A DNA stretch of 32,442 bases from contig CAIVSK010000053.1 of assembly GCA_903908495.1 (NCBI GenBank), positions 1 to 32,442 on the forward strand, given 5' to 3'. This DNA comes from Akkermansiaceae bacterium. Lineage in GTDB: Bacteria > Verrucomicrobiota > Verrucomicrobiia > Verrucomicrobiales > Akkermansiaceae. The notes under the pieces were generated by a model, which was not told the DNA's origin, did no database searches, and saw only the letters and a list, made by a program, of their open reading frames with translations. Shown piece by piece: positions 6,115-31,892 of the stretch (positions are counted from its first letter, which is position 1; each line of letters opens with the position of its first letter). Made by a program: the position numbers and the translations under genes.

Positions 6115-6254
6115 GAGGGTGCGTCGAGCGCCAGCATGGCCCGAAGCAGGCACTTGCGCAACCCCGGAAATTCAATCATGGGTAAGAAATGAGGCGGGCG
6201 CAACGCAGCCACTGCGGGAGCAATCCGGTATTTTTGCGGTGGCGGCCATTGTGC

Positions 6255-6283
6255 TTGCTAGCAGGCAGGCAAACCGCTAGTAT
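6255..6283 (+). promoter_or_regulatory. Putative sigma70-type promoter of the 849-aa lipoprotein gene
   Basis: TTGCTA (6255-6260), a 17-nt spacer and TAGTAT (6278-6283) each match the consensus at four of six positions. The -10 box ends 10 nt before the ATG, so the 5' leader would be only a few bases long. Confidence 0.4.
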
Positions 6284-6293
6284 TGATGCGTCT

Positions 6294-8843: not shown

Positions 8844-8879
8844 CCCCGTGCCCTGGCACCACCTGATTTGACCTCACCC

Positions 8880-11146: not shown

Positions 11147-11416
11147 GTGAAGAATCCCGCCCGCACCCTGCTTGCCCGCCAAGGCAAGGGCGACACGAGC
11201 CGCCTGCTGCCCAGGGGTGGACGCGCCGCCTGGTGGCTCGACCGCTTCCTGGCCGAGGCCCGTGTGCTGTTCGACCACCTGCCCGACGAAACAGCGCTGT
11301 ATCTCAGCGCTTATGGCACCCGCATCACCCCCGCCTACCTCGGCACCTGGGTCGTCGGGCAAATGAAAAAGGGCGGCATTACCAAGCCCGGCGCGTGCCA
11401 CCTGCTGCGTCACTCG
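11147..11416 (+). pseudogene. Tyrosine recombinase/integrase remnant (middle of catalytic domain only)
   Basis: About 90 codons match the interior of XerC/phage-integrase catalytic domains. RQGKGDTSRLLP (11-22) carries the beta-hairpin Lys region. RAAWWLDRFLAEARVL is the following helix. ALYLSAYGTRITPAYLGTWV (50-69) matches the usual 'LFls..G.rlt...v' block. CHLLRHS (84-90) is the HxLRH box. The upstream catalytic Arg, the second HxxGH box and the Tyr nucleophile are all missing. A TAA stands immediately before the fragment. After LRHS the frame continues for 25 unrelated codons into the end of the GH32 gene on the other strand. It cannot be an active recombinase. Confidence 0.75.
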
Positions 11417-14400
11417 ACGTCGATAAAGGGACAGAGAAACTATCGCAATGATAGAGCTTGTTGCGGTAGCTTCCGGGCACGCTGCCATAGGTGATGGAAT
11501 CGCCCAGCGGCAGGATCCGGATCGGCGGCGGCCGGCTGCTGCCGGACACCACATCCGCATAGGTCGCGCCGATGCGGATTTCATCATGGGCCACGCTGCG
11601 ACTGCCGCTAAACGCGGCGAGCGAAATGCCGTTGAACGACATGTCGGCGGCCCCCAGCTTGGTCAGCGTGGGCACGCCCGGCTCGCTGGCGGAGCTGGGG
11701 TTTTGATAGACATAGACATCATCATTGCCCGGCTTGAAGTCGATGCGCAACACATAAAAATTCACTGCGAGGGTGCCGCGGCCGACCGCGGTCTGGGCGG
11801 TGCCCGAGCGCAGGAAGACGTTGGTGCTGGCGCCCTGGTCGTTGCCAATGCCGCCGATGCGGCCCGGGTCGCCCAGATCGTCACGGTGGAGTTCGAATTC
11901 GTAAAAACTGGTAGTCCCGTTGGGCTGTTGCAGAAAGCTGATATAAATGGACTTGCCGTCCGCGCCGATGCGGCCGTTGGCATCGAGATAGCCACGCGAG
12001 CCGAACGTGCCGCCCCCCGTGGTGTCGAGCATCCGCCCCACTCGGCGGTTAGTGGCCAGATTGCAACTGTTGCCCAGCGCAGCCGCGTCGGAGCCCGCCG
12101 GCGCGTTACCCGTGGCGGCGAGACTGTCGGTCACGATGTCCGCGCTGCCACCATTGACCGTTTGCCACGCCGTGCCCCAACCGTTGCCGCCGGTCATGCC
12201 GGTGAGATTGGCGGAGCCCGCGGCGTAGTCGAATCCTTCATAGGCCAGCGGCGGCGGGGCGAAAGTCAACGTCACGTTGTCCGCCAGGTATGGCTTTTCG
12301 CCGTCGGTGGCCGTGGCACTGGCCGACGCGTTGAGCAGGTCGATCACTGCAAACACCTCGCTGCCGACGTCTGCCAGCGTGGGCGTAAAGGTGGCGGTCT
12401 TTCTAACTAGAGCAACGCTCGCCAGCGAGGGCAGCAGGGCATCGTCGGCGGTGACGCTGCGCAGGCCGGCCGCTCCTAACAAGGTTCCCTTGTCACCCGG
12501 AACCCCGCCGGTGACGCCCTTGCGGAACGACACGCTCAGATCGCCACTATAAGCATAGTTGCCCGCGCCGTCGGTGATCCGCGCGCCCAGATCGGCGCCC
12601 AGCGTGTAGGTCTTGCCGACATCATTGAGGGCGACATGGCCGAGCGACTGGAACAAGCCGGCGCGATTTTCCGTGCTGCCGTTGCGCGCCTTGAGGGAGG
12701 CCGCGCCCAGACCGCTGAAATTCGGATAGCCGGCGGCCGGCGTCAGGGCGTTGCCGCTGTTGTCCCAGCAACCCGCGGCATCCGCCCAGTCGCCAAACGT
12801 GGTCCAGTTGGGCACCGTGTTGTGGAAGGTCGCACCGCTGGGAATTCCTGCTTCGAAGCCGGGATTGAGGAGAGTCGTTGAGAGTGGGGGTTCCGGCGTC
12901 CACGACGAGTTGAGCGAATTCACCGTGAGCGAATAGATATACGCCGAGCCACCCACGGCCCTCAACGACGGAGTGGTGGTTCCGTAAGTAGGACTGACGT
13001 AATGGGCGCTGAAGCTCTCACCGCCGAACGTATAAGCTTCCAGACTCAGGCGGTCGAGCAACAGGCGCAGGGTCACGTGGCCGTTGCGCGCAAACTGCGC
13101 GCCGGTCACGGCGGGAATGCTGGTTCCGTCCGTCGCTACGAAACTGACGATCCCGCTGGCCACGTCGTAGCGCACGGTGGTGCGGGGCAAGTCGATGACG
13201 ACCTGGGTGGCGGTGCCGGGATCAAAGTCCAAGGAGAGATCGACCAGATCCAGGTTGCCCATGCCGGCGAAGAGGTTGCTCGTCGTGGTGAGGGCCTGCG
13301 CGGTCACGGTATGGGTCGCGCTGATCAGCGCCGAAATCTCAGGGATTGGATAGACACAGAGTCGCACCCCGCTGGGCGTAGTCCGCAAGGTGAGATCACA
13401 GGGAAATGACATTTGCTGGTTGAAGGGCAGTCCGTAAGTCGTGACGGAATCCGGTCCGCCAGCCATCCAACCGATCTGCACGGTGCGGCCCCCGGGCGCC
13501 TGATTGAAGGTTTGCGCCGCATAGAAATTACTGCTGTGGGTGCTTGCAAAGATATCAAATCCCTGGCCTGCCTGAAATGGCCCGGCTTCCGTGTGGAACG
13601 TGGTGCCGTCGAAATTGCCGATCTCATAGTCGAAGCTTGCATCGGAGATCACGCACTTGGTTTGGGCCGGGTCGCCATCCACCGGCGCGAAATACACGTC
13701 CATGCACTCGAATGCCCAATCCCGCAGCAGGTCGGACGCGAAGGTCCAGTCCTTGAGATTGGTGGAGGTGAAAAAGCGCACCCGGCCCGGGTTGGTGTGC
13801 ACCCACAACGTCATCACCCATTTCTGCGAGGCTTCATGCCAGAACACCTTTGGATCGCGCTCGGTGGTGTCAAAACCCTGGTTGGGAATCACCGCGCGCC
13901 CGTGGTTGTAATACTGCCAAGTCACGCCACCATCCGTGCTGTAGGCCATGGCCTGATAGTAAGGTCCGGCCGGGGAACCATTAGCGGCATTGTTGGCAAA
14001 GGTGAAAAACGCCACCAGCGTTTTGCGCGAACTCACTTGGACGCCGAGGCTGTTATTGAAATCAACCACGGCAGAGCCGGAATAAATCACGCCGCTGCGG
14101 CCATCGACCTGATAGGGAAGCAGCGCATGATCGAGCTGCCGCCAGTGCATCATATCGCTGCTGACGGCGTGACCCCAAGTTTGGTTCCCGCCGCTGGAGC
14201 CCAGCGGATTGTGTTGGAAAAACAGATGGTAGTCGTGACCATCGAAAACCATGCCATTCGGGTCATTGTCAAAGTTGCGGCGCGAGCTGAAATGAAATTG
14301 CGGGCGCAACGGTTGGTCGTAGCCGACGCCCGGAGGATCCGCGTTGGGGTAGCCCGGGCATAGCTGGAACCCGACGTCGGCGGGCGTGTCACTCGCCTCG

Positions 14401-14945
14401 AAGTCGTCGGCATTGATGTGGCCCCAACTGCCGGTGGCTTGATCGTAAATGACGATGGTGGCGCTCTTGCCCACGAGCGCCGCGGCATCAAAAGTCACTG
14501 GCAACATCGATTCGCTGTTGAAGCCGGTGCCCATGACATATTCCTGGCCCTCGCACACCAATTTGGCCCCGGTTTGGCCGGTCAGGTTGCCGCCGCCCAT
14601 GCGGAACGTGATGTAGCGTTTGGCAATCGTGAAGGCCTGCGAGGTCAGCGTGCCGGTGGCGCTGTCGCCGCGAGTCGCTCCCGGAGTCCCCGTGATCCCG
14701 TCGTAGTTTTCAAAAGTGCCGATCCAATAGTTGCCCTGCTGCAGGGCGGACACGTTGCCGCGAGCGGTCGTGTTGTCACCATAGGTCGGCTGGCGGGTGC
14801 TGAACGCCGCGCCGACGGCCGTCCAGTTGGCCAGCGTGCCGGTTTCAAAGTCGGAGTTGGGAAACAGCAGCGCCGTCGCACCAGCCGCGAACTGGGAGGC
14901 GAGCGCGGCGGCGAGCATGGCTGATTGCAGGAAATTTTTGCACAT
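11379..14945 (-). CDS. Secreted multidomain GH32 fructanase (levanase/inulinase type), 3' end truncated within an SGNH-hydrolase domain
   Basis: The open frame is 1188 aa and begins with a signal peptide (ending near ASQFAAGATA). Residues about 25-190 form a jelly-roll-like accessory domain (FPNSDFETGTLANW). The GH32 five-blade propeller follows, with all three acidic residues: nucleophile D228 in NDPNG, RDP at 363-365 and acid/base E413 in FECMDVY. The GH32 C-terminal sandwich ends near 680. A NPGFEAG-type beta domain (about 693-895) and a lectin-like domain opening YEGFDYAAG (about 902-1135) follow. Then comes IRILPLGDSITYG, the first block of an SGNH esterase/lipase domain. The frame leaves this homology after RNKLY (near 11450), and the last 23 or so codons are antisense to the recombinase remnant. 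The fructan hydrolase part should be intact, while the SGNH part is not. Confidence 0.88.
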   Translation of the reverse strand: MCKNFLQSAMLAAALASQFAAGATALLFPNSDFETGTLANWTAVGAAFSTRQPTYGDNTTARGNVSALQQGNYWIGTFENYDGITGTPGATRGDSATGTLTSQAFTIAKRYITFRMGGGNLTGQTGAKLVCEGQEYVMGTGFNSESMLPVTFDAAALVGKSATIVIYDQATGSWGHINADDFEASDTPADVGFQLCPGYPNADPPGVGYDQPLRPQFHFSSRRNFDNDPNGMVFDGHDYHLFFQHNPLGSSGGNQTWGHAVSSDMMHWRQLDHALLPYQVDGRSGVIYSGSAVVDFNNSLGVQVSSRKTLVAFFTFANNAANGSPAGPYYQAMAYSTDGGVTWQYYNHGRAVIPNQGFDTTERDPKVFWHEASQKWVMTLWVHTNPGRVRFFTSTNLKDWTFASDLLRDWAFECMDVYFAPVDGDPAQTKCVISDASFDYEIGNFDGTTFHTEAGPFQAGQGFDIFASTHSSNFYAAQTFNQAPGGRTVQIGWMAGGPDSVTTYGLPFNQQMSFPCDLTLRTTPSGVRLCVYPIPEISALISATHTVTAQALTTTSNLFAGMGNLDLVDLSLDFDPGTATQVVIDLPRTTVRYDVASGIVSFVATDGTSIPAVTGAQFARNGHVTLRLLLDRLSLEAYTFGGESFSAHYVSPTYGTTTPSLRAVGGSAYIYSLTVNSLNSSWTPEPPLSTTLLNPGFEAGIPSGATFHNTVPNWTTFGDWADAAGCWDNSGNALTPAAGYPNFSGLGAASLKARNGSTENRAGLFQSLGHVALNDVGKTYTLGADLGARITDGAGNYAYSGDLSVSFRKGVTGGVPGDKGTLLGAAGLRSVTADDALLPSLASVALVRKTATFTPTLADVGSEVFAVIDLLNASASATATDGEKPYLADNVTLTFAPPPLAYEGFDYAAGSANLTGMTGGNGWGTAWQTVNGGSADIVTDSLAATGNAPAGSDAAALGNSCNLATNRRVGRMLDTTGGGTFGSRGYLDANGRIGADGKSIYISFLQQPNGTTSFYEFELHRDDLGDPGRIGGIGNDQGASTNVFLRSGTAQTAVGRGTLAVNFYVLRIDFKPGNDDVYVYQNPSSASEPGVPTLTKLGAADMSFNGISLAAFSGSRSVAHDEIRIGATYADVVSGSSRPPPIRILPLGDSITYGSVPGSYRNKLYHCDSFSVPLSTSSDAAGGTRRAW

Positions 14946-15308
14946 GGGTTGGATGGGTCATAGATCGTCGGCTCGCGCCGCCCCGGCAAGCGGAGAATTC
15001 GATTAGAAATAATGAGCTGTCCTGACAGGTTTGCAATCACTCTTTACCGCAGTTTCTAAAGGCAGGGATCCGGCCTTCAGACTCTGACCTAATTTCAACA
15101 TCACCTCGCGGGCCGCGCATGGGCGCAACAGCCGCGACGGCTGCCTTCGCTAACCGCCGAGGACGCCTGTTCTCCGGTCAAAATGCGCATGAAACAAAGC
15201 GGACGAGAGTGATCCGGCCCGCCCTGGATCGCGAGGGTTGCACCACGAATTGGCGGCCCTGCAAGATAAGCATTGGATTATCAGGCCAGCCGGAGTAGGC
15301 TGCCGACC
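14946..15308. other. Intergenic region between divergent GH32 and ankyrin genes
   Basis: These 363 bp hold no gene I can support. Two dyads are visible: CTGTC-CT-GACAG at 15017-15028, 72 nt upstream of the GH32 start, and GATAA...TTATC (15265-15269 with 15278-15282) 27 nt before the ankyrin gene start. They are candidate operators, not proven. The region must contain the promoters of both divergent genes. Confidence 0.4.
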
Positions 15309-16778
15309 ATGAAGTGGCAAGCCCGCAACCTCCTGGCCACCGCCCTGTGCGTGATCGCCACGGCCGGGATCGCGGCCTGCAAAAAACGCGTGGAGGCGGT
15401 CAAGGCCGACCTCCGCGACGTTGGCTACCAACTCACCCCCGAGGATTGGTTCCGCGCCAGCCGCGATAACAACGTGGCGGTGCTGAAAAAATTCATCGCG
15501 GGCGGATTGGCGGTCGATACCCGGGATGCGGCCGGCGATTCCGCATTGCATGCCGCCGCTGCAGCGGGCGCGGAAAAGTCTGCGACTTACCTACTGGACC
15601 GGGGGCTGGCGGTGGACCTGGCGGGGGCCGCCGGGCGCACGCCGCTGATGGTGGCGGTGCTGGCCAAGCAAACCCGGATGGTGCGCTGGCTGCTGCGGCA
15701 AGGTGCCGCCCCGCGCCTCAAGGACAAGGACGGCTACACCGCTCTGATGCTCGGCGTGCGCGAGGGTTGTGCCGGGCCACTCGGGGAGCTGGCCGTTCAC
15801 ACACGGGAGGATCTGGATGCCGCGCTGCTGGCCGCCGCGCTGCAAGGCCAAACCGAGGTGATCGATGTTTTGACAAAATATGGCGCGTCGGTCTACGCCC
15901 GGATGGAGGATGGCCGCAGCCCGTTGATGCTCGCCGCCGAAAACGGCCACGCCAAGGCGGTCGAATTACTGCTGGAACTCGGCTCGAGCCGCTTCACCAC
16001 CGACCCGGACGGACACAACGCCGCCGACCTCGCCACCCAGGAGGGCCACCCGGAAATCGCCGACTTGATCCTCAAGCAGCCGCCGGCCGCCGAACTGGTG
16101 CTCGATTCGCCCGCCCAAATCGCCGCAGCGATGGATGCTGCGGTCGAAGCCGGATCCGAACGTGAGCCGGCCATCCAGCCCGCAACCCGCAGCGGCCAGG
16201 GTGACCGCGCCACGGCCCGCGCAGTGCCCGCCGCGTTGGAAGGACAGACCCTCGGCGCAGGTGCCGCCACCACCGCCGCCGGCTCTGGCGGGCCAGCCGG
16301 CCCCCAGTTGGTGATGCGCCATTACCGCGAACGCGAACTGCCGGTGACCGTCAAAACCGTGCAGAACGACACCGCGACGCTGCGCATGGCGGGGGCCACA
16401 CCCACCGAAGTGCATGTGCGTGCCGGGGCGGCGTTGCCGGGCTCGCGCCTCGTCGTCGTGAATGTCCAGCGCCGCATGAAGAGCGGCAAGGCCAACCTCG
16501 GCAAGCCGACTGAGGTGTCGGTGGTGGAGATCAAGGACACCACCACCGGAGCGACACGGGAGTTGATTGCCGGGGTGCCCTCCAGCGCCCATGATCCGGT
16601 GGCGCTGGTGGAGGACGTCAATACCGGCAAACGCTACACCGCCTCCCCGGGCCAGCATTTCCGCGGGGCCGACGGCCTGGAATACGTCATCAACGACGTC
16701 AGACCCAACCAACTCGTGATTGCGGAGGTGGCCGGCGGCAGCGTGCACACCCTGCCGTTGCGTGGAGCACGCGGTTGA
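15309..16778 (+). CDS. Ankyrin-repeat lipoprotein with an unassigned C-terminal beta domain
   Basis: This 489-aa protein starts at the ATG that gives a lipoprotein signal with Cys at residue 24 (GIAAC); an upstream in-frame codon at 15273 gives no signal. Residues about 45-255 contain ankyrin repeats of the outline G-x-TALMxAxxxG, for example DAAGDSALHAAAAAG, GRTPLMVAVLAKQ and DGRSPLMLAAENGHAKAVELL. An Ala/Gly-rich linker spans about 270-325. The C-terminal 165 residues are strand-rich and end with YTASPGQHFRGADGLEYVI and NQLVIAEV. That pattern recalls the PilP-like periplasmic domains that read 'G..y.v..i....v.l'; this is only a resemblance. The protein is probably anchored in the envelope for protein-protein contacts. 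Confidence 0.85.
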   Translation: MKWQARNLLATALCVIATAGIAACKKRVEAVKADLRDVGYQLTPEDWFRASRDNNVAVLKKFIAGGLAVDTRDAAGDSALHAAAAAGAEKSATYLLDRGLAVDLAGAAGRTPLMVAVLAKQTRMVRWLLRQGAAPRLKDKDGYTALMLGVREGCAGPLGELAVHTREDLDAALLAAALQGQTEVIDVLTKYGASVYARMEDGRSPLMLAAENGHAKAVELLLELGSSRFTTDPDGHNAADLATQEGHPEIADLILKQPPAAELVLDSPAQIAAAMDAAVEAGSEREPAIQPATRSGQGDRATARAVPAALEGQTLGAGAATTAAGSGGPAGPQLVMRHYRERELPVTVKTVQNDTATLRMAGATPTEVHVRAGAALPGSRLVVVNVQRRMKSGKANLGKPTEVSVVEIKDTTTGATRELIAGVPSSAHDPVALVEDVNTGKRYTASPGQHFRGADGLEYVINDVRPNQLVIAEVAGGSVHTLPLRGARG

Positions 16779-19673: not shown

Positions 19674-22364
19674 ATGAACCCCCTTGGCGCAGCTTTCCTC
19701 ACCTGTCTGGCCGTCTTGCCGCTGGCCGTGGCTGCTGAAGTGGCTCCGCCAACCGCCACTCCACCCACCCAGCCAGCCCCGGCTGACCCCCAGCCCGCAC
19801 TGGCCGACCCCCAGCCCGCGCTGGCCGACCTCATCACCCAACTCGCCGATGACAGTTTCCAAGTCCGCGAAGCCGCCACCAAAAAACTCTGGCGGCTCGG
19901 CGCGGCCGCCCTTGATGAATTGACCAAGGCCGCCGCCGGCAGCGATCCGGAAGCAGCCCACCGCGCCAAGGGACTTCTCCACAAAATCGACCTTCACATC
20001 ACCCCGGATACCGACCCATCGGTCATCGCCTTGGTGGAGCGCTACAAAAAAGCCGCGCTCGGTGACAAAATCGCCCTCCTCAAGGAGATGCGGCAAAAAC
20101 GCGCCTACCGCCAAATCCTCACCCTCTACGCCGCCGAGACCGACCCGAAAATCCGCAGCGACCTGCAATCGACCGTCAGCGGCATCGCCATCTTCGCCGC
20201 CCGCGAACGCCTCGTCGCCAACGACGGCCCGGGTGCTCAGGAGTTGTTGGAGCTGGCCCCCGCGGATGCCAAGAGCCTCGTAGCTCTCGCCGCGTTCCAC
20301 CGCGCCAATGGCACCCTCGAAGACGAGCTCAAACGCGCCAAAGCCTCGAAAGCCAGAGGCGCGCTGGCTTGGCAGCTCGCCCTCCAACGCGCCGCCGGCC
20401 GGCTCACCGAAGCCCACGCCGCCGCCATCGATGCGGGCGAACCGCTGCTCGCCGCCACCATGGCCATGCTCGCCGGGGACCCCGTGCCTTGGCTTGAACA
20501 CCACCCGACCAGTCGCCGCGCCGTCCCGGACTCCGACCTCTACTCGCCGCTCGCCCTCAAACGCTGGCAAGACCATGGCCTCCGCAAGGCCGACCTCGAG
20601 CCCACCCTCAAACTGCTCAATTCGCGCAACCCCAACAGCCGCACCCTCGCCTTCAATTCGCTCTTTCTCCTCGGTGAGACCGCTGCCACCGAAGCGGCGT
20701 ACACCAAAGCCTTTCCCTTAGACGCCTTTATCTATTTCGAGGCATTGGAACGCATCCCGGAAGCACTTGCCGCCATCGGACTCGACCCGGACAACCCCGA
20801 CTACACCGCCTGGGTCAAGACCCGCTTCGAGCGCCTCATCAAAGAAGCCGAAACCAGCGACATGGCGACAAGCGAATTGGTCGCCCTCGCCAGCTTTCTG
20901 GAAAATCGAGGTCTCGACGAGGAACTCGCGGCGGCCTTCGATGCCCCGCTGGCACGCCTCGCCAAAAAGGACATCGACGTCTTCACCAGTTTCATCAGCG
21001 CCCTCTTCGGCAACCGCTTCGTACGCACTGGCATCGTCGGCCCGCTGATGGGCGCAGGCACCCGCTGGGCCGCCGACGACGCCGAGCGCTGGGAGCAGCT
21101 CGTTATCGCAACCTTCGGTGACAACGATGACAACCTCGCCTGCTGGAAGTGGCTCGCCGAGCTCCAGCCCGATGCCACCCGCAAACAACGCCTCGCCGCC
21201 ATGCTCGCCCTCTCCGGCTATGGCGCAGACCCCGATCACCTCCGCGACCAGTGGCTCACCCTCGCCTGGGCCGCCATCACCAAAGCCGATGGCGACCAAA
21301 AAACGCTCTGCCTCAAGCTTCTCGCGTCCATCGTCGGGCCAACCGGCGACGCCGCCACCTGCCTGAAAATCCGCGACCTGCGGCCGCCCGGCGAAACGGC
21401 CACCGAATTGGACGGCCTCGGCCTGCTGCAATTTTCCGCCGCCGGCCGCTGGGAAGAGGCCTCCCAAATCATCCTCAAACTCCTGGCCAGGGAATCCGAC
21501 GCCAGCTCACAAGCCCGCCCCGACCTCCACGCTTATGCGGCCTCATGCCTGCGCCGCGCCGGTCACCCGGAAGACGCCGCAGTGCATGACGCATGGGTCG
21601 AAAAGCTCGCCCTCGGCGATACCGCGAGTTATTTACACATCTGCGATGGCTACGCCTTCGGTGCCGATTACGAGCGCTGTTCGTTGTGGTGGGAACGCGC
21701 CGCCCGCGAGGCCGCTCCCGAGTCCGAAACCTTTGCCAAAATCTTGAAATCCCTCTCCACCGACCAACTCAAACGCGGCCTCTGGAATCAGGCCGCCGCC
21801 ACCTCCGAAGCCCTCGCCCAAATCTATGGCGGCAGCAGTTTCAGCGGCAGTCTACCCCTGGTATTCCTCCGCTTGCGCTTGCAAGCCGATCAGGCGCATG
21901 CCTTCAGCCTGCTTGCCAGCGAGCGGGCCGCCGCCCTCGCCATGTTGGAAAAATGCCACGCCTTGTTGCCCTGCGATGGCTCGCTGGCCGACTATTTCTT
22001 CCCAGCCCTGCGCCAGGCCGGACTCACCCAACAGCACAACGCATGGTTTGAAATCACTTGGCTTCACCTCCAAGCCGTCATCCAACGCTACCCGCTCTCC
22101 CACAACACCCGCAACACCACCGCCTGGCTCGCCGCCCGCGCCAGACTCCACCTCGATGAAGCCGAGGCCCATCTCCACCAGGCGCTGGCCAACCACCCGA
22201 ACCAGGCCGCCTACCTCGATACCATGGCCGAGTTGCAATTCGCCCGCGGCAATCGCAAACCCGCCATCGAGTGGTCCGATAAGTCGGTCAATTTCATGCC
22301 CACCGACGATGACGTCCGGCGCCAGAATTTCCGCTTCATCCACGACCCGCTGCCAGAGGAGTGA
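19674..22364 (+). CDS. Exported HEAT/TPR-like repeat protein of unknown function (896 aa)
   Basis: A signal peptide covers about residues 1-21 (hydrophobic, ending AVAAE). A Pro/Ala linker containing a perfect ADPQPAL duplication follows. Residues about 50-105 form a HEAT-like unit (DDSFQVREAATKKLWRLG) common at the start of large planctomycete and verrucomicrobial exported proteins. The rest is mainly helical with repeat character. TPR-like units are clear at the C-terminus (HLDEAEAHLHQALANHP and LQFARGNRKPAIEWSDKSV, about 825-880). There is no catalytic motif. The protein probably acts as a periplasmic scaffold. It is followed 97 nt later by the PQQ-like propeller gene on the same strand. 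Confidence 0.82.
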   Translation: MNPLGAAFLTCLAVLPLAVAAEVAPPTATPPTQPAPADPQPALADPQPALADLITQLADDSFQVREAATKKLWRLGAAALDELTKAAAGSDPEAAHRAKGLLHKIDLHITPDTDPSVIALVERYKKAALGDKIALLKEMRQKRAYRQILTLYAAETDPKIRSDLQSTVSGIAIFAARERLVANDGPGAQELLELAPADAKSLVALAAFHRANGTLEDELKRAKASKARGALAWQLALQRAAGRLTEAHAAAIDAGEPLLAATMAMLAGDPVPWLEHHPTSRRAVPDSDLYSPLALKRWQDHGLRKADLEPTLKLLNSRNPNSRTLAFNSLFLLGETAATEAAYTKAFPLDAFIYFEALERIPEALAAIGLDPDNPDYTAWVKTRFERLIKEAETSDMATSELVALASFLENRGLDEELAAAFDAPLARLAKKDIDVFTSFISALFGNRFVRTGIVGPLMGAGTRWAADDAERWEQLVIATFGDNDDNLACWKWLAELQPDATRKQRLAAMLALSGYGADPDHLRDQWLTLAWAAITKADGDQKTLCLKLLASIVGPTGDAATCLKIRDLRPPGETATELDGLGLLQFSAAGRWEEASQIILKLLARESDASSQARPDLHAYAASCLRRAGHPEDAAVHDAWVEKLALGDTASYLHICDGYAFGADYERCSLWWERAAREAAPESETFAKILKSLSTDQLKRGLWNQAAATSEALAQIYGGSSFSGSLPLVFLRLRLQADQAHAFSLLASERAAALAMLEKCHALLPCDGSLADYFFPALRQAGLTQQHNAWFEITWLHLQAVIQRYPLSHNTRNTTAWLAARARLHLDEAEAHLHQALANHPNQAAYLDTMAELQFARGNRKPAIEWSDKSVNFMPTDDDVRRQNFRFIHDPLPEE

Positions 22365-22461: not shown

Positions 22462-23778
22462 ATGAAAGCAACCGTCACCCTTACCACCCATGTTCTAACT
22501 GTCTCACTGCTCGCCCTGCTGGCGGGCGACGCCTTCGGTGCCGCCACCTGGCCGCGCTTTCGCGGACCGGACGGTGCCGGCATCGCCGCCGCTGACGCCA
22601 GGCCCGCCACCAGCTGGAGCGAATCGAGCCACCTGCAGTGGAAGACGGCCCTGCCCGGGCCCGGCTCGTCGAGCCCGATCGTGGCGGGCGAGCGGATGTT
22701 TGTCACCTGCTACTCGGGTTACGGCGCGGGCGGCAGCGGCGACAGCCAGGACAAGTTGCAACGCCATCTGGTGTGTCTGGAACGCGCCAGCGGCAAGATC
22801 CTGTGGGACAAGACGGTGGCCGCCGAATTGCCGGAAGACCCGTTCAGCGGCTTTCTAACCGAGCACGGCTATGCCAGCAACACGCCGGTAACAGACGGCG
22901 AACACGTGTATGTGTTTTTCGGCAAGACCGGGGCGCTGGCATTTGATTTCGACGGCAAGCAACTTTGGAAGGTCAATCTCGGCAAGCGCTCCAGTCCCCG
23001 CCACTGGGGATCTGGGGCGAGCCCGCTTCTCTATCAGAACACTCTGATCGTCAACGCGGCCGACGAGAGCCGGGCCATTTACGCGCTCGACAAGCTCACT
23101 GGCAAGGAGATCTGGAAGACCGAGGTGGCCGCGCTGGACCTGAGTTTTGTCACCCCGATTCTGGTGGATGGCGAGGGCGGCCACAGCGATCTGGTACTCG
23201 CGGTGCCGGGCGAAATGTGGGGGCTCAATCCGGAGACCGGCAAGTTGCGCTGGTTTGCCGGGATCCCCATCAAGGGCAACGTTTCGCCCAGCGTGGTGGC
23301 AGCCGATGGCGTCATCTACGCGACCGGCGGGTACCCGCAGCAGGGGACCGTCGCGGTGCGCGCAGGCGGCAAGGGCGACGTCACCAAGACCCATGTCCTG
23401 TGGTCGAGCGAAACCGCTTCCTACGTGCCCTCGCCGGTGGTTTGCAAGGGCCACCTCTATTTTGTCAGCGACCAGGGTTTTGCCACTTGCCTGGAGGCCG
23501 CCACCGGCAAAATGGTGTATAAGGAACGCCTGCCCGGACTGCGCGGCAACAAGCCATTCTATGCCTCGCTCGTGTTGGCCAACGGCCGGCTCTACGCCAC
23601 CAGCCGGCGCGCGGGCACCTTCGTGCTGCAGGCCGACCCGAAGTTTGCCCAGCTCGCCCACAACACGCTGGCCGGCGATGACAGCGACTTCAACGGCACG
23701 CCCGCCTTGGTGGGCCAACAACTTTTCCTGCGCTCCAACCGATTTGTTTACTGCATCGATGGCGGTGCGGGCGGTTGA
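22462..23778 (+). CDS. Secreted PQQ-like beta-propeller repeat protein
   Basis: This 438-aa protein has an N-terminal signal peptide (cleavage near GDAFGA). WPRFRGPDGAGI, the typical opening of the planctomycete/verrucomicrobial 'outer membrane protein assembly BamB-like' propeller family, follows. Propeller blades are marked by repeated 'G..lW' closures: SGKILWDK, GKQLWKVN, TGKEIWKTE, TGKLRWFAG and THVLWSS. There are no residues for PQQ binding or dehydrogenase catalysis that I can identify, so a structural or ligand-binding role is more likely. The start has no Shine-Dalgarno sequence. A TTGACA hexamer lies at 22395-22400, but no good -10 box is placed behind it. The next gene starts 35 nt after the stop. 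Confidence 0.88.
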   Translation: MKATVTLTTHVLTVSLLALLAGDAFGAATWPRFRGPDGAGIAAADARPATSWSESSHLQWKTALPGPGSSSPIVAGERMFVTCYSGYGAGGSGDSQDKLQRHLVCLERASGKILWDKTVAAELPEDPFSGFLTEHGYASNTPVTDGEHVYVFFGKTGALAFDFDGKQLWKVNLGKRSSPRHWGSGASPLLYQNTLIVNAADESRAIYALDKLTGKEIWKTEVAALDLSFVTPILVDGEGGHSDLVLAVPGEMWGLNPETGKLRWFAGIPIKGNVSPSVVAADGVIYATGGYPQQGTVAVRAGGKGDVTKTHVLWSSETASYVPSPVVCKGHLYFVSDQGFATCLEAATGKMVYKERLPGLRGNKPFYASLVLANGRLYATSRRAGTFVLQADPKFAQLAHNTLAGDDSDFNGTPALVGQQLFLRSNRFVYCIDGGAGG

Positions 23779-24357: not shown

Positions 24358-24432
24358 ATGAAAAGCGATTCCCTCATCCGCCTGCTCGCAGGCACGATGG
24401 TGCTGATTGGCAGCGCCCTCACTCATTTATGA
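24358..24432 (+). pseudogene. Truncated DUF2892 (YgaP-type membrane domain) gene start, overlapping the sulfatase frame
   Basis: The ATG opens 24 codons (product begins MKSDSLIRLLAGTMVLIG) that match the first transmembrane part of small DUF2892 proteins, where 'LIRLxAGxxVLxGxAL' is followed by a second helix. Here a TGA ends the frame at 24430-24432, sharing ATGA with the first sulfatase start. After one lost base the sequence would read on as HFMNHP, a plausible continuation, so a frameshift followed by loss of the rest is likely. It could also now serve as a leader peptide that couples translation to the sulfatase. Confidence 0.5.
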
Positions 24433-25871
24433 ACCATCCGAAGCCACCGCCCCGTCGCCCCGCCTCGTTTTTGTTAGCAGTCCCGGCTCTATCCATGCGT
24501 GCCATGCTCATCGCCTCCCTGGTGGCATGCTGCGGCGATAGCGGCGCGCAGCAGCGCCCGGCCCAACCCAACATCCTGGTCTTGCTCGCGGACGACCTCG
24601 GTTGGGGCGACGTCGGGTTTCATCATGCCACCCTGCCCACGCCGCAACTCGACCGGCTCGCCAAGGAGGGCGTTGAGCTGCAACGCTTCTATGCCTATCC
24701 GGTTTGCAGCCCGACCCGCGCCGGACTGCTCACGGGGCAAATGCCGCGCCGCTTCGGCATCGCCGATGTGGTCGGCCCGCAACAAAATCTGCCGGCCGGA
24801 ATCGCGACGCTGCCCCGCACCCTGCAGGCCGCAGGCTATCAAACGTCGCTGGTCGGCAAATGGCATCTCGGCCAATCCGTCGTGCCCCAACAATGCGGCT
24901 TCGACCACTTCTACGGCTTTCTGGGCCCGCAGATTGATTATTTCAAACACACCAATCAGCGCGATGCCATCGATTGGCAGCGCGATGGCAAGACCCTCAA
25001 CGAGACCGGCTACTCGACCTATCTGTTTGCCGACGAAGCCATCCGGCAGTTGAAGCAACGCGATGCCAAGCGGCCGTTCTTCATCGAGGTCGCCTTCAAC
25101 GCGGTGCACGTCCCGCGCAGCGCGCCGCCGGAGTTGTTAGCCAAGTACAAGTCGCTGGGCGAGGCGGCGGCGATCTATGCCGCCGTGACCGAAGCGATGG
25201 ACAGCTCGATCGGGCGGATTCTCGCGACTCTTGATGAGGAGGGCCTGCGCGCCAACACTCTGGTGCTGTTCTTTTCCGACAACGGCGCGGCTGGCCGCGA
25301 CGGCGGCAGCAACGCGCCGTTGCGCGGCGGCAAAGCCACCGTCTTCGATGGCGGCATCCACATGCCCTGCCTGATGCGCTGGCCGGGTCACCTCACACCC
25401 GGCAGCGCCAGCCTGCAACCCATGGCCGTCCACGATGTGTTCCCCACCCTCGCCGCTGCGGCCGGCGCGCCCGTGACCGACCCCACCAAACTCGACGGTA
25501 AAAACCTGTGGCCAGCTCTGAGCGAGGGCCGCGTCATCGACCGCGGTGCCTTCGTCATTGCCGCCATCGACCTGGCGCTCTTCGACGGGGAGTGGAAACT
25601 CATCGAAACCGCCGCCGGCCAGCGCTCGCTCTATCAAATCGTCAAAGACCCCCGCGAAACCACCGACCTGCTCGCCAGCCAAAGCGACGTCGCCGAGCGT
25701 CTCGGCGCGAAGCTCACCGAGGTGAAAAAAGGGCTGCCCGCCGTCAGCACCCGGCCACGCCCCCGGCCGGGTGGCGCGGGTGGCCCGGGCGGAGCTGGAG
25801 GTCCGGCAGGAGCCGGGCCGGGCCGAGCCCGCCCCGGCGCAACCGGCCCGGGCAGCGGGCCTCAGAATTGA
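24429..25871 (+). CDS. Family S1 (formylglycine) sulfatase, exported
   Basis: This protein of up to 480 aa hydrolyses sulfate esters, probably of polysaccharides, outside the cytoplasm. Metal-binding Asp pair D55-D56 lies in LADDLGWGDVGF. C93 in CSPTRAGLLTG is the Cys converted to formylglycine (CxPxR type). GKWHLG near 143, AFNAVHVP near 224 and FFSDNGA near 285 complete the site. The C-terminal substrate part is followed by a Gly/Pro/Ala/Arg-rich tail of about 45 residues with no fold. ATG 24429 gives MNHPKPPPRR before the signal region; ATG 24495 gives a tidier lipoprotein-like signal (LVACC) and may be the real start. No sulfatase-maturase gene is in the window. Confidence 0.9.
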   Translation: MNHPKPPPRRPASFLLAVPALSMRAMLIASLVACCGDSGAQQRPAQPNILVLLADDLGWGDVGFHHATLPTPQLDRLAKEGVELQRFYAYPVCSPTRAGLLTGQMPRRFGIADVVGPQQNLPAGIATLPRTLQAAGYQTSLVGKWHLGQSVVPQQCGFDHFYGFLGPQIDYFKHTNQRDAIDWQRDGKTLNETGYSTYLFADEAIRQLKQRDAKRPFFIEVAFNAVHVPRSAPPELLAKYKSLGEAAAIYAAVTEAMDSSIGRILATLDEEGLRANTLVLFFSDNGAAGRDGGSNAPLRGGKATVFDGGIHMPCLMRWPGHLTPGSASLQPMAVHDVFPTLAAAAGAPVTDPTKLDGKNLWPALSEGRVIDRGAFVIAAIDLALFDGEWKLIETAAGQRSLYQIVKDPRETTDLLASQSDVAERLGAKLTEVKKGLPAVSTRPRPRPGGAGGPGGAGGPAGAGPGRARPGATGPGSGPQN

Positions 25872-28240: not shown

Positions 28241-28912
28241 ATGAAGACAGCAACCCGCAGAAAAAACCTTGAGGCCGCTTCGATCGGGGCCATCAGCTTG
28301 GTGTCAGCATCAGCTGCCCATGCGAGTTTGACTACGACGGATGTATCCGCGCTGGATCTGACAATATCGACAAATACAGACGGCGGGACGATCTATTTTG
28401 ACCTCGACCGGAGTGGCTCGGCACCCTACGCGGGATTCGTTGCGGGGGCTGTCAGCGGGTACGACTATTCGATTCATCCGGACGGAAGTTTTAATGGAAA
28501 ACCTACTGTGAGCGCCACAGGCTCACATAGCGTTCAGAACAACAAATTCAGCAGTGGTGCATTGATCGGCGCAGAGGGCACTTGGGGCACGTCCGCGGTC
28601 CTGGACAGTGGGACTGTTGGTGGACCTTGGAACGGTACCAATGGCGAAGGCTACCTCGGGTTGCGGATGTCTGCGGGAGGCAGTGACTATCAATATGGCT
28701 GGGCATTGCTCGACTACGAGGATGGAGCGGGCCAAATCAGCTTGAAGTCGTTCGGCTACGAAAGCGTGCTCAACCAGTCGATTGGAGCGGGGGCGGGAAT
28801 TTCCGCGATTCCAGAGCCAGGGAATATGTCGATGCTGGCGGCGCTGTTGTCAGGTTCAGTGCTGTTGCGCTCGCGGCGTCGCATGGTGAGGCAGGATTCG
28901 CATGAGGTCTGA
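28241..28912 (+). CDS. PEP-CTERM surface protein
   Basis: This 223-aa protein has a signal peptide ending near AAHAS (residues 25-29). An about 160-residue, Gly/Ser/Asp-rich, strand-rich middle follows, and a PEP-CTERM sorting signal ends the protein: IPEPG at about 191, a hydrophobic MSMLAALLSGSVLL helix and an RSRRR stop. Exosortase would cut at PEP and the protein would be released or anchored outside. The middle (for example GYLGLRMSAGGSDYQYGWALLDY) is like other verrucomicrobial 'LGLRF...YGW' PEP-CTERM proteins. The 223 bp before the ATG are AT-richer than the rest of the window and hold TATATT (28136-28141), a possible -10 box. The stop overlaps the next gene by 11 nt. Confidence 0.85.
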   Translation: MKTATRRKNLEAASIGAISLVSASAAHASLTTTDVSALDLTISTNTDGGTIYFDLDRSGSAPYAGFVAGAVSGYDYSIHPDGSFNGKPTVSATGSHSVQNNKFSSGALIGAEGTWGTSAVLDSGTVGGPWNGTNGEGYLGLRMSAGGSDYQYGWALLDYEDGAGQISLKSFGYESVLNQSIGAGAGISAIPEPGNMSMLAALLSGSVLLRSRRRMVRQDSHEV

Positions 28913-31892
28913 CCACCGTTTGTTGCTCGTCGGGCTGGATGGGCTGGATTGGGCGCTGGCAGGCGAACTGGCACGGGCGGGGTCCTTGCCATTCATCGAC
29001 GGAGTGCTGCGGCGCTCGTCCGGAGGGCTGCTGCGGGGCTTGCCCTATTGCACAGCGGCTGGCTGGTGGACCAGCGCGGCCACAGGGGTTTGGCCGCATG
29101 AGCATGGCAGTGTCGGCCGCGGCCGGATCGAAGCGGCTTCGGGAGTGGTCCATCCCCACACGGCCTGGACCAGAAAGCAGCCCGCGTTTTGGAACATCCT
29201 CAAGGGAAACGGCAAGCGATGCCACGTCGTTGGGTGGCCGGGGGCACAGCCAGCCGAGGCCATCGACGGGTATTTCCTAACTGGGGAGTGGGTGCGATCC
29301 CCGCCCCCTCCGGGATCGACGGATCCGCTGCCGGGTGCTTGGACCAGCCCGGCGGATCTGGCCCGTGCTTTGGGGCAATGCCGGGCGCGGGTGGAGGAGT
29401 TGGATCCAGGTATTCTCGGGTTCTTCGTGGATGCGGCGGCAGCCGGGGCGGAATTGGCTGCCGAGCCGCTAGTCGGACATCTGCTGCGCGAGTTGGCCGC
29501 GCTCTACACTTGCCACAACACGGCTATGGCCATTCTCGAAGATGCGCGGGAGGGCGCTGAGCCGTGGCAAGTCATGGCCGTTCATTATGCCTTTCCCGAG
29601 GAGATCCACCGGGCGTTTGGCAAGTTCCGCAGCCCGCAGACGGGGGAGGATCCGCGCCAGCACCGACTTTTCAACAAGGTGGTGGAGGGGTCGATCCGGC
29701 TCATGGATCTGCTTCTCGCCGACCTCGTCAACGGCTGCGGCCCGGAAACCACCCTGCTGCTGGTCTCGGCAAGGACGCATCCCCCGGCGGATGCGGCGGC
29801 TCCCGAGCCGACCTTGCTGGGGCCTCCACCTGAGCTTGACGGCCGGGTGTACTTGAGCGGTCGCGGAATCCGCGCCGGGGCGCGGCCCCACCAAGCACGG
29901 GTGACCGACATTGCGCCGACGCTGCTGCACTTTCTCGGCTGCGATATTCCGACACAGATGGCGGGCCGGCCCTGGGTTGAGGTCCAGCGCTCACCCCGCG
30001 AGGTGACAAGGGTGCCCTATGCGGGAGCGCCTGCCTGCCCGGTGGGCGAGGAACCCGCCGCGGACGCGGCGGACCGTGTGCTTGATGGCAGGGACCTCGA
30101 GGCCGCCCTGTGCGCGATCGAGTTCGAGACCGGCGTCTCGCTCATAGCTGCCGGCGAACCGGCGCGGGCGGTGGGACCGTTTGCGCGGGCGATGGTGATG
30201 CGTCCCGAGCACCCGCAGTATGGTTACCACCTCGCCTTCGCGCTGCTGGCCTGCGGACTCCGCGGTGAGGCGCTGGAAGCCATGGCGGGACTGGCGGATT
30301 TTGCGGGCGGGGATCCCGCGGTGGGTCTGCACGTGGCCGGATTCGCCATGCGCTGCGGTGATTTTCAGAATGCCGGTCAAATCCTTGATCATCCGGCCAA
30401 TCGGCAGGATGAAGGGGGTGAACACCGGGCGGAGTGGCTGTTGTTAAAAGCCTTGCTGCTAAACCACCAGGGGCAATGCGTGGCGGCAGAGGCGGCTTGC
30501 CGCGAGGCGCTTGCCCGCAAGCCTGGCATGGCGCAGGGCTGGCTGGGATTGGCCAATGTGCTGCTCAGCCAAGAGCGGTTTTCCGATGCCGAAGACGCCG
30601 CGCGACAAGCCCTGCGGCGGCTTGGATCCAAGCCGGACGCCCACTGGGTAATGGCTTATGCGGCCGCTCATGATGGCAGGTTCAGAGCGGTTCTGCGCCA
30701 TGCCGCCATGGCCATCCGGGGGGAGCCAGGACAAGCGGACGCACGCCGGTGGCTGACGGCGAATTTTTCCAAGGCGGATCCGGCATTGCGCAGCGAGCTC
30801 ATGCGGGTGATGAAACAGGCGGGTCACGAGGGGGCCGCCCATGGCAAGCACCCGGGCGTGGCAAGGCGGCACCTCGCCGAGGCGCTGCACGGGCCCGGTG
30901 GATTCACGGCCCGGACCCGTGTTGACGCCTGGCGCGCCAATCACGAGCCGCTGGTGCGTGCCGCAGGCGTCACGGAGTTTGACCGGGTTGATGCATTCTT
31001 GGAAATTCAGCGGCCTGCGGCAGGTGCCTACCGGCGGCGTTTCCTCGCGGTTTGTGGCAAACTTCAGCGCATCGTCGCTGCCGCCGTGGTGGAGGCGGCG
31101 GGGACACGTGGCATGGCGCGCTTGCACCTCAAGTTGCGGCCGGCGCACCAGCAGCAGGCGCTGGTGGAGCGATTGCTGGAGCATGCGGTGGTCGAGGCAC
31201 GGGCGGAGGGGCACACGTCGATGGCCGTCGTATTGCCCGAGACCGACGGGATTTGTCCGTGGATGGAGAGCGCGGGCTTCCTACATGTCCGGACTGATTC
31301 GTGGTGGCTCGCGAGCGACCTGGAGCGGGTGCGGGTGCGTCTGCAAAAAGCGACGGACCTGTGCCAGCGGCTCGCCTTGTCCGGGCACGGGATCGAATCC
31401 TCGGCCCTGACAGGTGGCGATTTTCCAGAGATCCAAGAGATTCTGCGTGTCCACCAATTGGTTGCGTTGCGCAATGATACGGGCGGCCATCAGGAGCCCC
31501 GGGATTTCATCGATCTCACACACAGCGGGCAAATGGCCTCCGCCGAAGGGGAAGCGGGGTGTCCAGCCGCTACCGACTACCAAGGGTACGACCCGTTGCT
31601 GTCATGCGTCCTGCGGGTCGATGGCAGGATTGCCGGGGTGCAGCTGGTGCAACGACTTTCCGCCGATTCTATCTTTGTGCACGCCCGCGCCGTTCATCCC
31701 GACTACATGAAGCAATCGGGATTGTTAAATCTGCACTTCTATGGCCGGCTCATCGGCGGGGAGTGGGAGGGCGTCAAGCGCTGCTTGTTCAGCGGCCAGG
31801 TCGGCAAGGCGGATGAAACCCATGCGATGGCCCGCCGCTTTGCGGCCGTGCATCTGGGAACTTTTCGCACCATGAGGAAAGACCTGACATGA
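28902..31892 (+). CDS. AlkP-superfamily phosphodiesterase-like / TPR / GNAT-like fusion protein
   Basis: This 996-aa protein starts 11 nt inside the PEP-CTERM gene. Residues 1-375 match type I phosphodiesterase folds: LLVGLDGLDW (metal D13), CTAAGWWTSAATG (candidate Thr51 nucleophile), PHEHGSVG, and the late TDIAPTLLHFLGCDIP. The motif SDHG that supplies the second metal site reads SART here, so phosphatase activity is doubtful. Residues about 400-670 are TPR-like (EFETGVSLIAAGEPARAVGPF, WLGLANVLLSQERFSDAEDAA). From about 690 a two-part acyltransferase-like region follows (LKLRPAHQQQALVERLLEHA, then a late SGLLNLHFYGRLIGG). No signal peptide or TM segment is evident, so it is probably cytoplasmic. 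The tight overlap suggests that it processes or modifies something linked to PEP-CTERM export. Confidence 0.8.
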   Translation: MRSDHRLLLVGLDGLDWALAGELARAGSLPFIDGVLRRSSGGLLRGLPYCTAAGWWTSAATGVWPHEHGSVGRGRIEAASGVVHPHTAWTRKQPAFWNILKGNGKRCHVVGWPGAQPAEAIDGYFLTGEWVRSPPPPGSTDPLPGAWTSPADLARALGQCRARVEELDPGILGFFVDAAAAGAELAAEPLVGHLLRELAALYTCHNTAMAILEDAREGAEPWQVMAVHYAFPEEIHRAFGKFRSPQTGEDPRQHRLFNKVVEGSIRLMDLLLADLVNGCGPETTLLLVSARTHPPADAAAPEPTLLGPPPELDGRVYLSGRGIRAGARPHQARVTDIAPTLLHFLGCDIPTQMAGRPWVEVQRSPREVTRVPYAGAPACPVGEEPAADAADRVLDGRDLEAALCAIEFETGVSLIAAGEPARAVGPFARAMVMRPEHPQYGYHLAFALLACGLRGEALEAMAGLADFAGGDPAVGLHVAGFAMRCGDFQNAGQILDHPANRQDEGGEHRAEWLLLKALLLNHQGQCVAAEAACREALARKPGMAQGWLGLANVLLSQERFSDAEDAARQALRRLGSKPDAHWVMAYAAAHDGRFRAVLRHAAMAIRGEPGQADARRWLTANFSKADPALRSELMRVMKQAGHEGAAHGKHPGVARRHLAEALHGPGGFTARTRVDAWRANHEPLVRAAGVTEFDRVDAFLEIQRPAAGAYRRRFLAVCGKLQRIVAAAVVEAAGTRGMARLHLKLRPAHQQQALVERLLEHAVVEARAEGHTSMAVVLPETDGICPWMESAGFLHVRTDSWWLASDLERVRVRLQKATDLCQRLALSGHGIESSALTGGDFPEIQEILRVHQLVALRNDTGGHQEPRDFIDLTHSGQMASAEGEAGCPAATDYQGYDPLLSCVLRVDGRIAGVQLVQRLSADSIFVHARAVHPDYMKQSGLLNLHFYGRLIGGEWEGVKRCLFSGQVGKADETHAMARRFAAVHLGTFRTMRKDLT

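Follow-up and report, generated by a model that had tools for sequence, protein, structure and literature searches.

What might be the role of a protein that joins an alkaline phosphatase (AlkP)-like fold, tetratricopeptide repeats (TPR) and a GNAT-like module, and whose gene begins within that of a surface protein? The question is raised by two genes in a DNA stretch of 32,442 nucleotides (nt; hereinafter the window) from an Akkermansiaceae bacterium, which is the whole of contig C53 (CAIVSK010000053.1) in an assembly (GCA_903908495.1) of 6.19 Mb and 432 contigs that is 95.7% complete and 4.8% contaminated. The first gene (28241..28912, forward strand, as are all features of the pair given below), delimited by its open reading frame and a match to the partner profile described below, codes for a secreted PEP-CTERM protein of 223 amino acids (aa), hereinafter the partner; the second (28902..31892), delimited by its reading frame and domain searches, codes for a 996-aa fusion of degenerate AlkP, TPR and GNAT-like parts. 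As the original prediction had stated from the letters alone, the fusion gene starts 11 nt inside the PEP-CTERM gene: both frames lie on the same strand, and ATGAGGTCTGA (28902..28912) closes the partner gene while opening the fusion gene. In support of a start at 28902, the N-terminus matches that of a paralogue from the same genome (MHDRRVLLVAREGMDW vs MRSDHRLLLVGLDGLDW); from the overlap we infer that the pair is translationally coupled. In a literature search, with subscription papers and preprints outside its reach, we found no paper describing an AlkP-TPR/PEP-CTERM locus and, in line with the prediction, no described system with this combination.

The genomic linkage of AlkP-TPR genes to genes of a single partner family is well supported, and on sequence grounds the fusion gene is a derived form of an AlkP-TPR(-sulfotransferase) family. 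Beyond this, we tentatively favor a reading, its full mechanism pieced together by inference, in which the pair would be a derived member of a widespread locus whose cytosolic AlkP-TPR protein serves the secreted partner before export.

A derived member of the AlkP-TPR(-sulfotransferase) family

The AlkP, TPR and GNAT-like architecture predicted for the 996-aa protein proved to be real, as indicated by domain searches, family homologues and a model of the AlkP part. Residues 1-363 (28902..29990) constitute an AlkP/NPP-fold domain (PF01663, 47 bits, cut-off 23; also residue scoring), the model of which is similar to nucleotide pyrophosphatase and alkaline phosphatase structures with Z-scores of 25-26 (e.g., the Xac NPP 2gsn: Z 25.1, root-mean-square deviation 2.8, 266 aligned residues). 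It is followed at about aa 396-645 (30087..30836) by TPR helical repeats, supported by PF14559 (39.7 bits, cut-off 25) and by the model; the TPR part of the family matches O-GlcNAc transferase among many TPR proteins. The remaining tandem GNAT-like region (aa 675-996; 30924..31889), recognized through homologues, occupies the position of the sulfotransferase of most relatives.

Although it shares the fold of the NPP enzymes, the window protein lacks five of the seven site residues that its AlkP-TPR relatives keep. Only D13 and S58 are retained; the D, H, D and H of the relatives are replaced by E233, R237, A290 and R291, and the distal H is missing. These seven positions correspond to the metal-ligand and nucleophile residues of Xac NPP. 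With most of the metal site gone, AlkP catalysis by the window protein is not borne out. Moreover, neither a sulfotransferase family (E ≤ 1) nor a P-loop motif was detected in the fusion protein, and both activities have most likely been lost from it. The first strand of the modeled AlkP fold (aa 6-12) opens the fusion protein and leaves no room for a leader; thus, the protein is probably cytosolic.

Searches of 99 genomes, including that of the window, recovered AlkP-TPR matches at E ≤ 10–10 in 32 of them, with identities of 25-32% outside the genome itself. Among the 47 places found, 42 fall within our set of 49 Verrucomicrobiota AlkP-TPR loci, four were examined later and one (G070:C107) was left out; seven members of the set (L041-L043 and L045-L048) had been chosen through GNAT matches. 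Three further loci (L044, L049 and L050), in which neither blastp nor the profile detected an AlkP-TPR gene, stand outside it. A scan of named genomes with alignment A5 yielded at least 568 relatives, the best 80 of which form a second set that overlaps the first (L096 and L053 lie on contigs of equal length). These best 80 of at least 568 come from Verrucomicrobia, Planctomycetes, groups of Delta-, Beta- and Gammaproteobacteria, Nitrospirae, groups of Acidobacteria, Armatimonadota, Bacteroidetes and Chlorobiota. A P-loop sulfotransferase motif was present in 32 of the 40 AlkP loci examined, with the sulfotransferase at the C-terminal end, where the window protein has its GNAT-like region, and the two proteins scanned with Pfam, L051 and L041, both scored above the cut-off of Sulfotransfer_3. 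The window locus shares with this family the order AlkP then TPR and an adjacent partner gene, and lacks the sulfotransferase domain. A scan of the collection with the window protein recovered no relative on viral contigs and, by its own patterns, none on genome contigs.

Linkage to a family of secreted partners

The window partner begins with a basic leader (aa 1-28, MKTATRRK...SAAHA; 28241..28324) read from the sequence with a predicted cleavage site, followed by a mature domain (28325..28807) with the pattern ..YLGLRM..YGWA..FGYES..I.AG of alignment A6 and a PEP-CTERM sorting signal (aa 190-213; 28808..28879). The latter lies just under the TIGR02595 cut-off (15.6 bits vs 16); nevertheless, sequence and model display a PEP motif, a hydrophobic helix (193-220 in the model) and a basic tail. 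A profile of 18 other neighbors matches this partner with 66.2 bits (E 9 × 10–19). The mature domain has no Pfam family at E ≤ 1, and in Pfam scans of eight partners the anchor motif alone exceeded any cut-off. The partner model has a mean predicted local distance difference test (pLDDT) score of 66.8, mostly 80-90 over aa 135-174, and returned no usable structural match (Foldseek best E 0.27; VIA-align best Z 3.7); the model being weak, we make no statement on a new fold.

Recurrent PEP-CTERM neighbors, for which the original prediction had proposed a test, were indeed recovered: a strict PEP-CTERM pattern occurs within 1.5 kb at 36 of the 49 Verrucomicrobiota loci (33 of these on the same strand), as compared with 3/265 background genes located over 3 kb off, and some of the 13 loci missed by it have variant tails. 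In the other phyla the C-terminus of the neighbor, read by eye, is often IPTL-like, type IX-like or devoid of a recognized signal. Given this variation, the shared features of the partners are the mature domain and an often long leader rather than the anchor, and a role at the anchor, also envisaged originally, is not upheld.

The 18-neighbor profile, built with the window partner left out, recovered 121 of 3719 reading frames at E < 10–3, including the partner of the paralogue (E 1.2 × 10–8). After iteration it placed a partner within 1.6 kb of the AlkP-TPR gene at 59 of the 80 named-genome loci (28/32 from ‘other phyla’, 20/32 from the Planctomycetes-Verrucomicrobia-Chlamydiae group and 11/16 from Bacteroidota) and at 42 of the 49 Verrucomicrobiota loci, with 12 of its 129 matches lying farther off in the same loci; these counts are partly circular, because the iterated profile was trained on AlkP-TPR neighbors, that of the window included. 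The un-iterated profile, with the seed loci left out, still gave 42/66 named-genome and 38/46 Verrucomicrobiota loci, and the above count by the strict PEP-CTERM pattern serves as another check. Across the 99 whole genomes, partner matches lie within 2.5 kb of an AlkP-TPR gene in 13 of 16 cases at E ≤ 10–30 and 28 of 57 at E ≤ 10–18 (7/10 and 22/51, respectively, without six rows of the query alignment). Separately, in Desulfoluna spongiiphila AA1 (L107, 7901-10705) the partner domain lies inside a 934-aa protein that adjoins an AlkP-TPR-sulfotransferase gene.

We compared the leaders of 68 AlkP-adjacent partners with those of 20 others (four without a length). The adjacent ones are longer (median 33 vs 19 aa; Mann-Whitney p=9 × 10–5), with a slightly less hydrophobic core (p=0.011). 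Seven of the 20 comparison partners themselves come from AlkP loci but lie farther off, and for six of them the leader measures 27-40 aa; the other 13, from standalone regions, have 11 leaders of 17-25 aa, one of 35 and one unmeasurable. A suggestive pattern comes from G079 and G002, in which no partner lies closer than 1.6 kb to the AlkP locus: G079 has a partner with a 35-aa leader on another contig, and G002 has one on another contig (leader of 17 aa by script, 41 from the first ATG) and one 13 kb away on the same contig. An RLxxY pattern is present in 34 of the 68 adjacent leaders as against 4 of the 20 others. In the Bacteroidota loci L138-L169, several partners next to AlkP-TPR-sulfotransferase genes combine an RLxxYSxxAGA-like leader with type IX-like C-termini, and leaders similar to this type were seen in phyla with other C-terminal signals.

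That the mature domain and often long leader are common while the C-terminal signals vary suggests that the AlkP-TPR protein would encounter its partner prior to export, with something other than the anchor as its target. Alternatively, the locus could make a sulfated or phosphorylated small molecule or glycan, with the surface protein as a carrier or merely co-regulated. The joining of a phosphodiesterase fold to a sulfotransferase in the relatives would suit such a product, as would the tie between exosortase systems and exopolysaccharide (PMC1569441); however, the recurrent neighbor is one protein family, and it is still kept in the window version with its degenerate AlkP and missing sulfotransferase, which makes this alternative improbable.

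Loss of the AlkP site and the GNAT-like module

We scored the seven AlkP positions in 138 AlkP-TPR proteins, 116 with and 22 without the sulfotransferase motif. Within the former group 114 keep all seven residues and two keep six, whereas in the latter ten keep seven and 12 keep one to three; hence, degenerate AlkP sites occur in 12/22 proteins without the motif and 0/116 with it, a fraction that is no population estimate because the set grew through GNAT matches and weak AlkP matches. The rule that a missing sulfotransferase always implies a dead AlkP domain was rejected on account of the ten motif-less proteins that keep all seven residues; some of these are truncated at the ends of contigs (L072 and L083), have the sulfotransferase in the next gene (L245) or, like the 983-aa L113, are long enough for a variant motif. 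The reverse rule holds: all 12 degenerate proteins lack the motif. None of the 12 has SDHG, and in six of them (L260, L268, L270 and L275-L277) several scored positions fall in alignment gaps. The Fisher p values calculated in this analysis take no account of relatedness. Six of the 12 are GNAT fusions (the window, L046, L048, L088, L260 and L261), three have an adjacent GNAT gene (the paralogue, L268 and L270), and the other three (L275, L276 and L277) showed no GNAT in the short stretches examined.

These counts bear on whether the AlkP-TPR protein might instead be a regulator of partner expression, with the TPR as sensor and a degenerate enzyme domain, that has no contact with the partner protein. 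The gene overlap and the degeneracy of the enzyme domains would fit such a regulator; but the Pfam scan of the window protein listed no DNA-binding family, the AlkP site is retained in nearly all sulfotransferase-bearing relatives (114/116), and the leader difference points to the protein level, so that we regard this as distinctly improbable.

A second copy on contig C226 of the same genome displays the same order, with the PEP-CTERM gene overlapping the AlkP-TPR gene by 8 nt and the latter overlapping a separate GNAT-like gene by 4 nt. The window and C226 copies are about 40% identical over AlkP-TPR and 38% over the GNAT parts. Accordingly, the fusion is one form of a three-part cassette. 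The original prediction had held that independent genes for the two parts elsewhere would speak against a joint system; such genes do exist, but they are often side by side, which favors rather than contradicts a shared job. A different split was seen at L245 (G111:C16, 4404-12207), where one full AlkP-TPR-sulfotransferase gene stands in tandem with a second set whose sulfotransferase is encoded apart from its AlkP-TPR, and where three partner genes are present.

We counted state changes, i.e., gains or losses, on trees, taking as forced those required by well-supported branches. The fused label changes five times on a GNAT tree of 29 rows from which two contig-end near-copies of L048 were left out (at least three forced), and six times when these are included and labeled unfused (five forced); on an AlkP-TPR tree of 43 rows the degenerate state changes five times (at least four forced). 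Both trees group the window with the paralogue and G254, L088 with L043, and L260 with L048, and the six GNAT fusions fall in several separate groups; the exact placements are unsure because of long branches in all trees. The G254 locus has, in overlapping genes, a PEP-CTERM protein, an intact AlkP-TPR-sulfotransferase and a separate GNAT. Decay of the locus, with the window gene a relic on its way to loss, would explain the degenerate AlkP site and missing sulfotransferase; yet the 996-codon frame is open, the window and C226 copies have open frames and retain 40% identity over AlkP-TPR, and the same combination recurs in several separate tree groups, making it highly improbable.

The window region itself is below the Pfam GNAT cut-off (15.4 vs 20.7 bits), and its GNAT label rests on the family. 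Among the five regions scanned against Pfam (the window, L023, L041, L043 and L088), two passed that cut-off (L088, 38.8 bits; L043, 26.5), and L023 and L041 showed no GNAT family. Searched against solved structures, the family profile matches acetyltransferases (E 0.0041-0.03) along a portion of its first half, and its top two matches (E 0.0013) are labeled acyl-CoA synthetase. In the predicted structure of the window protein aa 667-996 are below pLDDT 50, the alignment rows used carrying a sulfotransferase there. The usual acetyl-CoA motif of GNATs is Q/RxxGxG/A; it was not found in 23 of the 31 GNAT rows, including that of the window. Acyl transfer is thus without motif support, and the GNAT-like part could be either a non-canonical transferase or a binding module.

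In phyletic terms, the GNAT profile marks 17 of the 49 Verrucomicrobiota AlkP-TPR loci (seven of them chosen through GNAT and two from the genome of the window) and none of the 80 named-genome loci; among the 40 loci chosen through AlkP it marks eight. It matches at E ≤ 10–5 in 30 of 384 genomes of the class, the window’s own included. At E < 10–15 this class search gave 24 places, some of them query rows; AlkP-TPR or sulfotransferase genes are fused to or close to 17 of these, and the other seven comprise three at contig ends, one beside a partner gene and three with neither. The sole match outside the genome with the window GNAT sequence alone (L025) was rejected as a coiled-coil false match. 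The L044 locus (G116, 6931-8861) has a GNAT gene in overlap with one that resembles the sulfotransferase end of the family, and neither blastp nor the profile revealed an AlkP-TPR gene in the 16 kb examined.

The fusion protein might still be an enzyme: in place of sulfation, its GNAT-like half would attach an acyl or aminoacyl group to the partner, or to the lipid of the partner, before export. The retention of GNAT in six fusions with a degenerate AlkP domain and no sulfotransferase motif argues for this, as do the Pfam scores of L088 and L043 and the matches to solved acetyltransferases; the absence of the canonical motif from most rows, the sub-threshold score of the window, the lack of a GNAT family in L023 and L041 and the three degenerate proteins with no GNAT in the stretches examined argue against it. 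On balance, we consider acylation rather unlikely.

A possible pre-export step and comparable systems

For the tentatively favored service of the partner before export, the following course may be envisaged. Before either protein leaves the cytosol, the TPR part would recognize the freshly synthesized partner, the leader being the probable point of recognition. The next step, in most lineages, would be for the AlkP and sulfotransferase domains to modify the partner or some group destined for attachment to it; in the window lineage the AlkP domain would be kept only as a scaffold, the remaining work falling to the GNAT-like part, which would be either a non-canonical transferase or another binding module. 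Export of the partner and its transfer to an exosortase would follow.

Several observations weigh against this account. Of the 57 whole-genome partner matches at E ≤ 10–18, 29 have no AlkP-TPR gene within 2.5 kb (though for one of these, in G029, the start of an AlkP gene was found beside the partner), so a good part of the partner family stands alone. The partners of the window and the paralogue were outside the leader comparison, in the former case because the profile match starts further in, and their leaders, though basic, measure 28 and 26 aa by eye; leader lengths generally hinge on uncertain start codons. The leader tyrosine fails as a general sulfation site, many sulfotransferase loci having no RLxxY. 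The two trees disagree on L267 and on L046, which joins the window and paralogue on the AlkP-TPR tree only. The acetyl-CoA motif is mostly missing, as noted above. Finally, hydropathy was dropped as evidence for a cytosolic location, the exported partner scoring 1.36 and the fusion protein 1.44.

The window partner resembles substrates of the PEP-CTERM/exosortase (EpsH, XrtA) system in its PEP motif, helix and basic tail, and its genome has three matches to the exosortase family PF09721 over the cut-off. The TPR lipoprotein PrsT, a kinase and a regulator are described with an exosortase system in PMC1569441; however, a word search of its main text gave no sulfotransferase, phosphatase or acetyltransferase, and relatives of the window locus occur with other C-terminal signals or none. 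A second parallel is RaxST-RaxX, where, according to PMC6637879, a leader-bearing precursor is sulfated on tyrosine and loses its leader before secretion. As in that system, the sulfotransferase of the relatives is encoded beside a leader-bearing secreted protein; unlike there, it is fused to AlkP-TPR, the neighbor is a surface protein of about 220 aa, and the window copy lacks the motif. By this analogy the AlkP and sulfotransferase domains of the relatives may modify the partner as RaxST does RaxX. The TPR-guided transferases typified by O-GlcNAc transferase likewise join a TPR array to a transferase-type domain, although the catalytic folds differ and guidance by TPR is only presumed for the present family.

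A broader proposition, which we find conceivable but doubtful, is that leader-dependent maturation before export occurs in several phyla irrespective of the sorting route (exosortase, type IX or none), the AlkP-sulfotransferase enzyme having repeatedly become a dead scaffold with a tandem GNAT-like module taking over. This would represent repeated pseudoenzyme formation tied to a changed modification chemistry, and a pre-export step found in none of the literature searched, irrespective of the sorting signal on the cargo. Environmental bacteria have many surface proteins of the PEP-CTERM and related types, the maturation of which is poorly understood. The system is testable: several groups have lost the two catalytic domains together and gained a GNAT fusion, so that comparisons can be made within one cargo family between loci that have the sulfotransferase and loci that lack it; sulfation, if confirmed in the relatives, would extend bacterial protein sulfation beyond the RaxX type.

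Elsewhere in the window we observed frames of 884 and 896 aa (6189-8843 and 19674-22364) with no Pfam match at E ≤ 10–5, a 1188-aa protein with a GH32 N-terminal domain (11379-14945), an ankyrin-repeat protein (15273-16778), a PQQ beta-propeller (22462-23778) and a sulfatase (24429-25871). Near the contig end (32116-32442), a signal-peptide-like start, recognized by eye, and a longer secreted-looking frame (..NTTVTPELTLADGWVSGTDNTN..) lie in different frames, possibly reflecting a further secreted protein that is frameshifted and runs off the contig.

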